Assembly (NCBI RefSeq): GCF_000519085.1
Contig: NZ_KI912577.1
Coordinates: forward strand, 1,617,331 to 1,681,330
DNA length: 64,000 bases
Source of the DNA: Methylobacterium sp. 10
Lineage (GTDB): Bacteria > Pseudomonadota > Alphaproteobacteria > Rhizobiales > Beijerinckiaceae
Direction: 5' to 3'
Shown: one piece after another, positions 12,879-17,721 of the stretch
Position numbering within the stretch: position 1 is the first letter of the stretch
Layout of the letters: each line of letters starts with the position of its first letter
Notes under the pieces: model-generated
Told to the model about the DNA's origin: nothing
Databases searched by the model: none
The model's input: only the letters and a program-made list of their open reading frames with translations
Made by a program: the position numbers and the translations under genes

Positions 12879-14867
12879 CTACCGGCGCGGCAGGGCGTGC
12901 AGCGCCTTGAGGAAGACGTCCACGTCCGCGCGGGTGTTGTAGAAGGCCAGCGAGGCGCGCACCGACTGATCGACGCCGAAGCGGCGCAGGGCCGGCAGGG
13001 CGCAATGGTGGCCCGAGCGCACGGCGATGCCGCGGGCGTCGAGATGCTTGGCCACCGCCTCGTTGTCGTGTCCGTCGATGACGAAGGACATGACGCTGGC
13101 CTTCTGCCGCGCCGTGCCGATGAGGCGCAGGCCCTTCACGTCGGCGAGCCCTCCTTGCGCGTATTCGAGCAGGTCGTGCTCATAGGCCGCGATGCCGGGC
13201 AGTCCGACGCTCTCTAGGTAGTCGAGGGCCGCCCCCAGTCCCACGGCGCCGGCGATGTCGGGCGTGCCGGCCTCGAACTTCTCCGGCGCGCCCTTGTAGA
13301 CGGTCTTTGCGAAGGTGACGTCCTCGATCATGTGGCCGCCGCCCTGCCAGGGGGGCATCGCCTCCAGCAGGTGCTTCTTGCCGTAGAGGGCGCCGATCCC
13401 GGTGGGGCCGAACACCTTGTGGCCGGAGAAGACGAGGAAGTCGGCATCCAGCGCCTGCACGTCGAGGGGGATGTGCGGCGAGGATTGGGCCGCATCTACC
13501 AGCACCGGCACGCCATAGGCATGGCTGAGCGCGATGATCTCGGTCACCGGGTTGATGGTGCCGAGCGCGTTGGCGACATGGGTCACCGACACGATCTTGG
13601 TGCGGCCCGAGAGCAGGGCGGCGAACTGCTCGAAGATGATCTCGCCCCGGTCGTTGACCGGGATCACCCGCAGGGTCGCCCCCGTGGCCTGGGTCAGGAG
13701 CTGCCAGGGCACGATGTTGGCGTGGTGCTCGATCTGGCTCACGATGATCTCGTCGCCAGGACCGACATTCGCGCGGCCATAGGAATTGGCTACGAGGTTG
13801 ATGGCTTCCGTTGTGCCGCGCAGGAAGACGATGTCGTCCTTCGACGGGGCGTTGAGGAAGCGACGCACCTTTTCGCGACCGCCCTCGAACAGGTCCGTCG
13901 AACGCGCCGCCAGGGTATGCGCGGCCCGGTGGATGTTCGAGTTGTGGCGGGCGTAGAACTCGCTCGTCGCATCGATGACGCTCTGCGGCTTGTGGGTGGT
14001 GGCCGCGTTGTCGAGCCAGACCAGCGGATGCCCGTTGATGCTCTGGTGCAGCGCCGGGAAGTCCTTGCGCACGCGCTCCACGTCGAAGGGTGCCGCCACC
14101 GGGCTGGAGCCCTGCGACGAGACATGGGGCGCGTGGCCGGGGCCCGGCTCGTGGCGAGTCGACAGGGCGGGCGCGGCGTTGCCCGTCCGGCTGCGGTCGG
14201 TCAGGAAGTAGTATTCGCCCGACGAGAACGGCTCGTCGGCGATCTCCACCTTGCGGACTGCGTCGGGAGCAGTGCGGCCGGTGCGGGAGACGGTCTCCTG
14301 CGACGCGTCCTTACCCTTATGGCCGGGCGCTTCCGAAACCAGCGACGGCGCGAACCCATGCGCGAAGGCATTGGCGCGCGGGTGGTCCTTGGCGCTCGTG
14401 GCGTGGAGATCGTGGCCGCCGGGGAGGAAGGCGGCGACATCGGCGACGCTCGGCACGAAGAACTCGGGCAGGCCCCCACGGGGAGCCTGCGCCTCGGGAT
14501 GGACCGAGGGAAACGCCGAGGGCTGCGCGAAGCCCGGACCGGTGAGGCCGGGAAGGCCGACCGGAGGCGCTCCGAACGAGCGGGCGCCCTGCGCCGAGGC
14601 GTCGGGCTGAAGACCCGACGGCGCGGCGCCCGAGGGGATCGACGGCGTGCCGAAATCCGCCTTGGGGGCGAGGGGGTGGCCGAAGCCCTGGGGAATGTTC
14701 TCCAGGGCCTGCGGCGCTTGCGGCGTCGACGGCAGGTTGGGGGTCAGGGGCGCGCTTGCTGCCTGACCCTGGCCGTAGATCTCGCGGGCGAAGCGCCCGA
14801 CGAGATCCGCATGCGCCGTGTCGCCGAACAACCCCGTGGGGAGGCCCGGCGCGTTAGGCGTAGTCAT
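12879..14867 (-). CDS. Cysteine desulfurase with long N-terminal encapsulin-cargo extension
   Basis: This 662-residue protein has two parts. Residues ~259-662 form a complete SufS-like type II desulfurase: WLDNAATTHKPQ, SQIEHHANIVPW, the PLP lysine 484 in SGHKVFGPTG, and catalytic Cys622 in RSGHHCALPAL. It converts cysteine to alanine plus enzyme-bound persulfide. Residues 1-258 are Pro/Gly/Ala/Ser-rich and probably disordered, with short hydrophobic islands near 11-31, 132-150 and 214-223. Such extensions direct desulfurase cargo into family 2 encapsulin shells, as known for SrpI of Synechococcus. The upstream neighbour is the shell gene, overlapping by 14 nt, so the two are probably translationally coupled. 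Confidence 0.93.
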   Translation of the reverse strand: MTTPNAPGLPTGLFGDTAHADLVGRFAREIYGQGQAASAPLTPNLPSTPQAPQALENIPQGFGHPLAPKADFGTPSIPSGAAPSGLQPDASAQGARSFGAPPVGLPGLTGPGFAQPSAFPSVHPEAQAPRGGLPEFFVPSVADVAAFLPGGHDLHATSAKDHPRANAFAHGFAPSLVSEAPGHKGKDASQETVSRTGRTAPDAVRKVEIADEPFSSGEYYFLTDRSRTGNAAPALSTRHEPGPGHAPHVSSQGSSPVAAPFDVERVRKDFPALHQSINGHPLVWLDNAATTHKPQSVIDATSEFYARHNSNIHRAAHTLAARSTDLFEGGREKVRRFLNAPSKDDIVFLRGTTEAINLVANSYGRANVGPGDEIIVSQIEHHANIVPWQLLTQATGATLRVIPVNDRGEIIFEQFAALLSGRTKIVSVTHVANALGTINPVTEIIALSHAYGVPVLVDAAQSSPHIPLDVQALDADFLVFSGHKVFGPTGIGALYGKKHLLEAMPPWQGGGHMIEDVTFAKTVYKGAPEKFEAGTPDIAGAVGLGAALDYLESVGLPGIAAYEHDLLEYAQGGLADVKGLRLIGTARQKASVMSFVIDGHDNEAVAKHLDARGIAVRSGHHCALPALRRFGVDQSVRASLAFYNTRADVDVFLKALHALPRR

Positions 14868-16245
14868 GGTAGTTGCCCAGCAGCACGTTATCGAGGCGTG
14901 CGATGGCGTCTTCCACCAGCACCGCGGCCGAGAAGTAGCGGGTCACGAGGTGCGAGGCGATGGAATGGTCGTTGGTGCCCATGTAGCGCACCGACAGGCC
15001 GGTCTCGATCTCGCCGGTGACGCCGGACTTCTGCAGGCCGACCACGCCCTGTTCGCCTTCGCCGACGCGGAGCAGGAGGATCGAGGTGGTCTGGGCGCCG
15101 GTCACCGGATCGATATCGATGGGCAGCTTGTCGCTCGGCACGATCGGCACGCCGCGCCAGGTGAGGAAGGGCGAGCCGAACAAGTGGATCACCACCGGCG
15201 GCACGCCACGGCGGGTGGCTTCACGGCCGAAGGCCGCGATGGCGCGGGGATGGGCCACGAAGAACGCGGGCTTCTTCCAGACCAGGGTCAGGAGCTCGTC
15301 GAGGTCGTCCGGGGTGGGCGGTCCACCACGGGTGGGGATGCGCTGGCGCTGGCTGACTTCGTGGAGGAGGCCGAACTCGGAATTGTTGAACAGCTCCCAC
15401 TCTTCCCGCTCCTTCACGGCATCGACCGTGAGGCGGATCTGCTCGCGAAGCTGGTCGATCTCGTTGGAGTAGAGATCGGTCACGCGGGTGTGGGTGTGCA
15501 GGATCGTCTGGATCGTGGAGAGGTGGTACTCGCGAGGGTCGACCTCGTAATCGACATAGGTCGTGGGCAGGCGCGGCTCGCCGGTATGGACCGCCAGAAG
15601 CTCGATGCCCTGCTCGCCCTCGCTGTTGGTGTGGCCCTTGAGGCGGTCACGCTCTTCTACGAACTGGGAGATGCGCGAGCGGATACCCTCGTCCTCGATG
15701 GCGGCGCGGTCGAGGGTGAGCAGCGTCACCGCCGAGAGCGCCTTCACGGCGGGGGCGGGGGCGTTCTCGTTCACGAGGTCGCTATCCCCGAAATAGTCGC
15801 CGCCGGTGGCGAGACCCTGGCGCAGGCGGTTTTTGAACGGACCGGACAGGGTCAGCTCGACGGTGCCCTCGGCCACGACGGTGAGGCTGCGGCCGGTGGA
15901 GCCCTCCTCGGCGATGATCTCGCCCGCCTTGTGCTGGGAGACGGTGAACTTGGATGCGAGGGCCGACAGCTCGTTGTCGCCGAGGCGGCTGAACAGCGGG
16001 ACGCTGCGCAGGGAGGCCGGGCGCACCGTGCGGGTGCCGCCATCGTTGGCGAGCTCGATCCGGCCGGGTTTGGCCAGCACGACCGCGCGGCGGTTGACCC
16101 GGTAGACGCCGCCGGCGACGTCGACGAAGGGCAGCAGGCGATGGAACCAGCGCGGGGTGTTGGCCGCGTTCTGGACCGACGTGACGGTCGCCGTTGCGAG
16201 ATTGCGTGCCGCCGAGGCGCTCACGCTCAGACCGGGTCCACTCAT
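14854..16245 (-). CDS. Family 2 encapsulin shell protein with cNMP-binding-like insertion
   Basis: This 463-residue shell protein should self-assemble into an icosahedral HK97-fold nanocompartment around the desulfurase. The N-terminal ~75 residues contain VYRVNRRAVVLAKPGRIEL. A CRP-like beta-barrel insert spans about 79-190 (SVPLFSRLGDNELSALASKF to LTLDRAAIEDE). The HK97 core follows, including TYVDYEVDPREYHLSTIQTI, EWELFNNSEFGLLHEVS and TPDDLDELLTLVWKKPAFFVAHP. This insert defines the subgroup usually called 2B. Its phosphate-binding cassette is degenerate (GDYFGDSDL, then APAPAV without the arginine). The ATG at 16245 has GGAG upstream; a start 21 codons earlier is less likely. Confidence 0.93.
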   Translation of the reverse strand: MSGPGLSVSASAARNLATATVTSVQNAANTPRWFHRLLPFVDVAGGVYRVNRRAVVLAKPGRIELANDGGTRTVRPASLRSVPLFSRLGDNELSALASKFTVSQHKAGEIIAEEGSTGRSLTVVAEGTVELTLSGPFKNRLRQGLATGGDYFGDSDLVNENAPAPAVKALSAVTLLTLDRAAIEDEGIRSRISQFVEERDRLKGHTNSEGEQGIELLAVHTGEPRLPTTYVDYEVDPREYHLSTIQTILHTHTRVTDLYSNEIDQLREQIRLTVDAVKEREEWELFNNSEFGLLHEVSQRQRIPTRGGPPTPDDLDELLTLVWKKPAFFVAHPRAIAAFGREATRRGVPPVVIHLFGSPFLTWRGVPIVPSDKLPIDIDPVTGAQTTSILLLRVGEGEQGVVGLQKSGVTGEIETGLSVRYMGTNDHSIASHLVTRYFSAAVLVEDAIARLDNVLLGNYHDYA

Positions 16246-16415
16246 GGGTGTTCGTCTCCGTATTGCGGCAGGAGGCGTCGGCCGGCCGTGACGCGGCGCG
16301 TGCCGCATCGAAGCCGCGCCTGTCGCGCGTCCGCTCTCGCTCGATGGATAATCTTGGGCTGATCTTGATCGGCCCCCGCTGCCTCAGACAAAGCATCATT
16401 GCGGGGACGGGTTGT

Positions 16416-17462: not shown

Positions 17463-17529
17463 GGTCTGTCTTTCACTCCTCGCGCCTGGCTCGCGCGAGC
17501 CTGCATTTTACCCCCCGCAGGCCGCACCC

Positions 17530-17721
17530 TCAGCCGATGCGTTGGAACAGCGTCGCGATGTAGCCTACGAGCAGGCCGTGACCCTCGAACTGGACATTCA
17601 CCGCCTCGGCCCCATCGGGGCCGGATACGATGTCGACGATACGTCCCGTGGCGTGACGCCAGATGCCGAGCGCCTCGGCGACATCGAGTCTCGCGAACAC
17701 GACCTGATCTCCGAGAACCAT
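17530..17721 (-). CDS. Small conserved-looking protein of unknown function upstream of cysE
   Basis: A 63-residue protein beginning MVLGDQVVFARLDVAEALG and containing ATGRIVDIVSGPDGAEAVNVQFEGHGLLVGYI. A very strong GGAGGAGGG ribosome site and ATG start support expression. Alternating strands and glycines suggest a small beta-barrel (SH3/KOW-like), but I cannot name a family. It is the first gene of the cysE-encapsulin-desulfurase set, so a role in sulfur sensing or nanocompartment function is possible, though purely inferred. Confidence 0.65.
   Translation of the reverse strand: MVLGDQVVFARLDVAEALGIWRHATGRIVDIVSGPDGAEAVNVQFEGHGLLVGYIATLFQRIG

Follow-up and report, generated by a model that had tools for sequence, protein, structure and literature searches.

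Why should a bacterium enclose a cysteine desulfurase in a protein shell, and under what growth condition would it do so? The question is raised by a four-gene cluster at positions 12879-17721 of a 64,000-nucleotide stretch of the Methylobacterium sp. 10 genome (contig NZ_KI912577.1; the whole stretch is termed the window). The genes are transcribed from the minus strand in the order orf63, cysE, shell, desulfurase, and all four lie on the one strand where the original prediction, made from the letters of the DNA, had placed them. The favored interpretation, given a probability of about 0.55, is that the cluster encodes a Family 2B encapsulin nanocompartment with a SufS-like desulfurase, which would be made under sulfur scarcity and use cysteine as the source of sulfane sulfur to be stored or shielded. 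What was computed here is the identity of the genes, the motifs of the cargo, the linkage of the genes and a conserved promoter element common to sulfur-acquisition genes; from these we infer that the shell would form and be loaded, that the element would answer to sulfur and that sulfur would be stored, together with whatever action orf63 may have.

17530..17721, minus strand: orf63, conserved protein of 63 residues, SH3-like barrel by prediction
16596..17462, minus strand: cysE, serine O-acetyltransferase with a GDGI end, 288 amino acids (SATase_N)
14854..16308, minus strand: Family 2B encapsulin shell open reading frame, 484 amino acids, likely start at 16245 (PF19307, NF041163)
15694..15936, minus strand: cyclic nucleotide monophosphate (cNMP)-like insert of the shell, residues 125-205 (Pfam PF00027)
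12879..14867, minus strand: SufS-like cysteine desulfurase cargo, 662 amino acids (PF00266, NF041166)
14775..14801, minus strand: N-terminal helix motif VGRFAREIY of the cargo, residues 23-31 (by inspection)
14202..14213, minus strand: YYFL motif of the cargo, residues 219-222 (by inspection)

Shell, insert and cargo

A family 2 shell with a cNMP-like insert had been predicted, and the profile search with encapsulin models proposed as its check bears this out. The protein matches the HK97 Family 2 model PF19307 (362 bits), PF00027 over the insert (34.9 bits, cut-off 27.5) and the curated model NF041163, 'family 2B encapsulin nanocompartment shell protein' (573 bits, cut-off 400). The likely true start is the ATG at 16245, residue 22 of the open reading frame. 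Among solved structures the best matches are 9bje (395 bits, full-length), 9bhu and 9bix, whose alignments span almost all of the shell and take in the insert; these entries carry names of regulators or nucleotide-binding proteins and we infer that they are 2B encapsulins. A phage capsid was considered and rejected in view of the curated encapsulin models and the cargo linkage. The four best-matching loci, with shells 98-99% identical to that of the window, are from Methylobacterium, M. bullatum among them, which is consistent with the earlier guess of a likely methylotroph.

The shell is found in 49 of 59 sampled Methylobacterium genomes, with frames of 421-547 residues that leave room for the insert; ten genomes are without it. 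Insert-bearing (2B-size) and 2A-size shells are told apart here by open-frame length. At the family level 50 of 199 genomes have a shell, and outside Methylobacterium and genus g6 the frames are mostly of 2A size (311-364 residues). In a phylum-wide sample, 17 of 398 genomes have one. A tree of 62 of the 128 shells places the window shell in a 20-row 2B clade (98/96), where its companions are desulfurase-linked 2B shells from Verrucomicrobiota, Aureimonas, Acetobacter, genus g6 and a Bacteroidota-labelled genome. Taken together, 2B shells with a desulfurase do not form a single clade here, because those of actinobacteria, cyanobacteria, Planctomycetia and Chlorobiaceae fall elsewhere, with weak support. 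Three shells with terpene cyclase cargo (L225, L226, L227) form their own clade (100/100), and 28 of 29 2A rows form another (100/100). A Family 2A shell that regained its insert is not supported, as the window shell stands in the 2B clade apart from the 2A clade. The odd 2A-size shell (L159, genome G193) is very divergent, with an end branch of ∼2 changes per column, and still adjoins a desulfurase.

Cyclic nucleotide receptors have an arginine in the phosphate-binding cassette. The window insert reads GDYFGDSDLVNENAPAPAVKA at the usual position of this residue and the arginine is not seen; R[ASTC]A occurs in the phosphate-cassette span of only two of 90 2B-size shells. A cyclic nucleotide is therefore, by residue comparison, an unlikely ligand of the insert. 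According to PMC12407261, earlier work had demonstrated for a 2B insert that it does not bind cyclic nucleotides. The insert of one Planctomycetia 2B shell (L133) keeps GPRTA, nearer to a cyclic-nucleotide-type phosphate site than the other inserts printed.

The predicted identity of the cargo is also upheld. The desulfurase matches PF00266 (490 bits), TIGR01979 (543.5 bits from residue 265, cut-off 475.1) and the encapsulin cargo model NF041166, which is labelled 2A (813.5 bits, cut-off 800), and has RSGHHC, the motif of the active site, at residue 617. The window genome also contains a separate SufS-like gene that is 50% identical. A disordered N-terminus of ∼258 residues had been proposed; an extension of ∼257 residues is indeed of low complexity (proline, glycine, alanine and serine make up 50% of residues 1-257 vs 32% of 258-662), while the word disordered is a reading of composition alone.

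Two N-terminal motifs have been reported for Family 2A cargo, for which experiments showed loading by the N-terminal domain (PMC8049743). Both motifs were counted in the 122 of 124 desulfurase rows whose N-terminal region was usable; among the rows are near copies and two second fetches. The YYFL-type motif is present in 83 of 86 desulfurases beside 2B-size shells (0.7 expected from shuffles) and in 19 of 36 others (0.2 expected). The helix motif, searched with one strict expression, is found in 74 of the 86 (2.2 expected) and in seven of the 36 (1.1 expected). That expression misses the F variant of the window motif, and both motifs are missed in L222, L224 and L127 among others. Since the motifs of 2B cargo match the two reported for 2A cargo, the loading code looks shared between the two families, as far as motifs can tell. 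A GLPTG sequence near the cargo N-terminus resembles the terpene cyclase motif GPTGLGT and is lacking in the distant desulfurases printed.

A promoter element in common with sulfur-acquisition genes

The desulfurase start overlaps the shell stop by 14 bases in the window, and an overlap of this length recurs in 69 of the 88 loci of 2B size, two of which are second fetches. Upstream of the shell is a gap of 350 bases with a conserved promoter-like element, because of which the cluster probably forms two predicted transcription units, orf63-cysE and shell-desulfurase.

16440..16457, minus strand: palindrome and -35-like box GAACAGAATTTCATTGAC of the shell-desulfurase promoter
16415..16444, minus strand: -35-like TTGACC, 18-base spacer and -10-like TAGAAA
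18070..18088, minus strand: weaker copy of the element (two mismatches) upstream of orf63, conserved in close relatives

In the 63 loci compared that have a cysE-shell gap, the gap measures 317-512 bases and always contains TTGAC, a sequence also present in 28% of shuffles. TTGAC is 111-273 bases ahead of the shell start, and in most loci a spacer of 18 bases leads to a -10 box starting with TA. Abutting it is the palindrome GAA-N5-TTYY, exact in 40 gaps, with one mismatch in 22 and with three in one; only two of 315 shuffled gaps come within one mismatch of the element. The weaker copy before orf63, with one or two mismatches, is found in 12 loci (the window, L056-L059 and seven of L105-L114). 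The sequence GGAGGAGG lies just upstream of orf63. A search for riboswitches gave no Rfam match in window positions 10500-20500.

A scan with the exact pattern covered 34 of the 59 Methylobacterium genomes (27 with a shell, seven without) and gave 51 matches, compared with two for the reversed pattern. Fifteen of the 51 are shell promoters, the source of the pattern itself, which leaves 36 to judge. Of interest is that 17 of these are upstream of sulfur-acquisition genes: SsuA-family genes at seven sites (three over the curated cut-off), the MsuE flavin mononucleotide reductase at four (all over), SfnB-like genes at three (two below the cut-off, one by BLAST only), MsnO8-type luciferase-like genes at two (one over, one by BLAST at 77%) and a mercaptopyruvate-sulfurtransferase-like gene at one (below the NCBIfam cut-off, Pfam rhodanese over). 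At the L282 site the SfnB-like gene is ∼150 bases downstream. A half-swapped control that keeps the -35 box has seven matches in the same genomes, none beside such sulfur genes (Fisher p 0.02). A permuted pattern, which has no match in 26 genomes, is no part of the evidence, being stricter than the real pattern. In the window genome itself the only exact match is the shell promoter. Shared sites of this kind suggest that the compartment may be under shared control with sulfur-scavenging genes.

In six genomes the element also precedes a small unnamed protein of ∼90-113 residues with RVIEIGE.TAGIAVPEGRGVRFFSSARDFDGLDGAVF (L248, L257, L261, L265, L268, L279).

CysE, orf63 and the YedE1E2 transporter

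The cysE product matches SATase_N (97 bits) and Hexapep, and is the second copy in the window genome, the other being 55% identical. Its C-terminal end is strongly conserved: GI is present in all 63 copies examined and GDGI in 58. In E. coli, a GDGI-type CysE tail docks CysK. A cysE or epsC gene adjoins such operons in other phyla too; the annotated order in Synechococcus elongatus is cysK-epsC-shell-desulfurase-rhodanese, and Variovorax and Aliarcobacter 2A loci likewise have epsC/cysE and rhodanese. The companionship of cysE had been counted as part of a little-studied combination, but in 2021 serine O-acetyltransferases had already been named, with rhodaneses, as the accessory genes most enriched at desulfurase operons (PMC8346489).

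The 63-codon gene proposed upstream of cysE proves to be real. It is found in the window and in 62 of 80 genome_contigs loci, with a mean ratio of nonsynonymous to synonymous differences (pN/pS) of 0.44 over 53 equal-length copies, where pS is 0.48 and near saturation. The 18 loci without it comprise one whose contig starts inside the shell gene (L115), two that have no cysE match either (L098, L116) and 15 of other groups (L120-L125, L127-L135). At the genus level orf63 is present in 48 of 49 shell-bearing and in none of ten shell-less genomes (Fisher p 2e-10, uncorrected for ancestry); it is found in none of 21 shell-bearing genomes of other genera. The sole exception in the genus, G052, has neither orf63 nor cysE in 18 kb round the shell. 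On gene content, orf63 is thus a conserved unannotated partner with a sharp presence/absence signature. In L116/L221 (both G052) and in L098, shell and desulfurase are kept and orf63 and the neighbouring cysE are both gone, as if lost together.

The predicted orf63 structure, from 33 sequences, is SH3-like (predicted local distance difference test score, pLDDT, 89.7). The protein has no Pfam family, and its model has no Foldseek match at E <= 0.001. In fold comparison VIA is best (Z 8.1), followed by generic SH3-like folds that are tied. DUF1918 is matched by eight of 33 members (best E 0.0035) and not by the window copy. No match of fold or profile was convincing enough to give orf63 a family name, and nothing is to be concluded from that lack. 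Six genomes carry extra orf63 copies. In three (L214, L215, L216; genomes G010, G026, G017) the second copy is transcribed divergently from a YedE1E2 pair, and cysE, shell and desulfurase are all missing from the 8.5-9 kb fetched, a hint that orf63 may have a tie to the transporter. The copies in G002 and G038 have no YedE1E2 neighbour that could be found, and the one in G025, the sixth, is a weak and partial match that tblastn did not recover.

Two adjacent half transporters, which together make a YedE1E2-type pair, are linked neighbours of the cluster.

11959..12375, plus strand: YedE1-like half transporter (PF04143)
12369..12803, plus strand: YedE2-like half transporter, start approximate (PF20398, DUF6691)

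YedE1E2 is reported to import zero-valent sulfur (PMC10812762), and by analogy the window pair is predicted to do the same. Of the 49 shell-bearing Methylobacterium genomes, 30 have the DUF6691 half within 10 kb of the shell, and 48 have it somewhere. The pair is present in 34 of 48 full-length Methylobacterium loci; most have it upstream in divergent orientation, but in the window and its close relatives it is convergent and lies downstream. Linkage recurs farther afield: in Oscillatoria (L129) YedE1E2 follows shell, desulfurase and cysE, in Acetobacter (L127) a YedE1-like frame follows the desulfurase (by BLAST only, with no Pfam match), and one 2A locus (L142) has the pair and an opposed cysE upstream.

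Other genes flank the cluster in the window. Just upstream (18211-19679, minus strand) are a cytochrome b561 and a molybdopterin oxidoreductase that resembles MsrP/sulfite dehydrogenases at scores below curated cut-offs; among the loci examined, they adjoin the cluster only in the closest relatives, L056-L059. SnoaL-like and RidA-like genes (10846-11746, plus strand) lie between a flavin adenine dinucleotide-linked oxidase and YedE1E2.

What the compartment may do

In the mechanism proposed, shell and desulfurase would be expressed from one promoter with overlapping stop and start codons, and the helix and YYFL motifs would draw the desulfurase into the shell. CysE, with CysK encoded elsewhere, would raise cysteine, which the desulfurase would convert to alanine, leaving sulfane sulfur inside the shell, as a store or out of reach of the cytosol. 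Further sulfur, in zero-valent form, would be imported by the neighbouring YedE1E2. The function originally put forward was that sulfur is stored, or persulfide generated, with cysteine synthesized locally as the supply; this is plausible and gains support from the promoter element common to sulfur-acquisition genes.

Several observations weigh against sulfur storage under sulfur-responsive control. Storage in the shell is argued by analogy with a Family 2A encapsulin of Acinetobacter baumannii, which reportedly has a desulfurase cargo and stores sulfur; the likeness is in the HK97 shell, but the chain matched by the window shell, PDB 8t6r, presumably this A. baumannii shell, has 310 residues and no cNMP insert. 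The cluster has no rhodanese, and neither cysK, rhodanese nor a SufE-like gene is among the neighbours scanned. As to the element, no sulfur link was found for 19 of the 36 further sites (six before the small unnamed protein, six inside open reading frames, seven other), and of six one-mismatch sites in the window genome one precedes an SsuA-family gene (below the curated cut-off) and five have no link. The copy before orf63 was not seen in loci beyond the 12. Site counts are not independent, because sister species share orthologues; five gene groups of one sulfur theme nevertheless share the element. YedE1E2 is not near the shell in 19 of the 49 Methylobacterium genomes, and in other genera DUF6691 is within 10 kb of the shell in two of 21 shell-bearing genomes and lacking from that neighbourhood in 19 (read by eye). 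In S. elongatus, 2A knockouts have no growth defect (PMC8049743).

Three rival explanations were considered. The compartment might be a persulfide-delivery reactor, whose shell limits the acceptor of desulfurase sulfur, for iron-sulfur clusters or cofactors under sulfur shortage, with nothing stored. A SufS-type enzyme with RSGHHC at residue 617 would suit such a role, 2A relatives have a rhodanese next to the operon, and an acceptor hypothesis has been stated (PMC8346489); the lack of rhodanese and SufE-like genes among the neighbours scanned and the separate SufS-like gene available for ordinary use make it rather unlikely here. It is decidedly improbable that packaging serves to keep a very active desulfurase off scarce cytosolic cysteine, so that release or pore control would matter and not storage. 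Restraint was suggested for S. elongatus, yet in that same 2A work encapsulation raises activity about sevenfold (Nichols et al., PMC8049743), and a co-occurring CysE that raises cysteine argues for cysteine use.

The core might instead be shell and desulfurase alone, with cysE, orf63 and YedE1E2 neighbours by descent that have no common task. G052 and L098, which do without orf63 and cysE (for G052 in the 18 kb fetched), and a transporter near the shell in just 30 of 49 genomes are consistent with this; the tracking of shell presence and absence by orf63 (48/49 vs 0/10, with the same caveat of ancestry) and the recurrence of cysE/epsC beside such operons in other phyla speak against it and render it improbable. 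A more specific form of the favored storage interpretation is possible, though tentative: the Methylobacterium 2B compartment would belong to a sulfonate-scavenging regulon, recognizable by its GAA-N5-TTYC palindrome at the -35 box, and act as a sulfur capacitor in which scarce sulfur is saved up, with orf63 as an obligate, subtype-defining component that might, for instance, act as adaptor or gate for CysE, the shell insert or YedE1E2.

The combination of cNMP-insert shell and desulfurase had been called little studied, which is overstated: a catalogue of 2021 lists desulfurase cargo for 1281 operons of Family 2A and 199 of Family 2B (Andreas and Giessen, PMC8346489), and curated NCBI models name both components. 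The window resembles those 2B operons in its cNMP-insert shell, in a SufS-like cargo with a long unannotated N-terminus and in the serine acetyltransferase companion; the shared promoter element, YedE1E2 and orf63 are unmentioned in the available main text of that paper, orf63 being nameless and hard to search for. By the terms tried, the available main text of neither 2021 paper (PMC8346489, PMC8049743) mentions a sulfur transporter. With SrpI/CyD of the S. elongatus plasmid pANL, a 2A system whose shell and cargo rise on sulfur starvation, the window shares the cysE(epsC)-shell-desulfurase order, both cargo motifs and the sulfur-starvation link (PMC8049743); the S. elongatus system differs in having no cNMP insert, in the cysK and rhodanese of its cluster and in its separate shell clade. 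The 2B encapsulins L225, L226 and L227 share a shell with insert-size extra sequence, and differ in their terpene synthase cargo and their clade. A study of Rhizobium sulfur genes on leaves does not concern encapsulins, in the part available (PMC9123166). No experimental account of a Family 2B desulfurase compartment was found in the open literature searched, subscription papers being mostly outside its scope. For encapsulins in Methylobacterium this literature yielded a single paper, which is on Acetobacteraceae.

The kind of compartment is thus already known, and what is new, as leads, is its control, its small partner and its link to a transporter. From the promoter element a definite growth condition, sulfur limitation or sulfonates, is predicted for a culturable genus, which would bring the role of the compartment within reach of a direct test.

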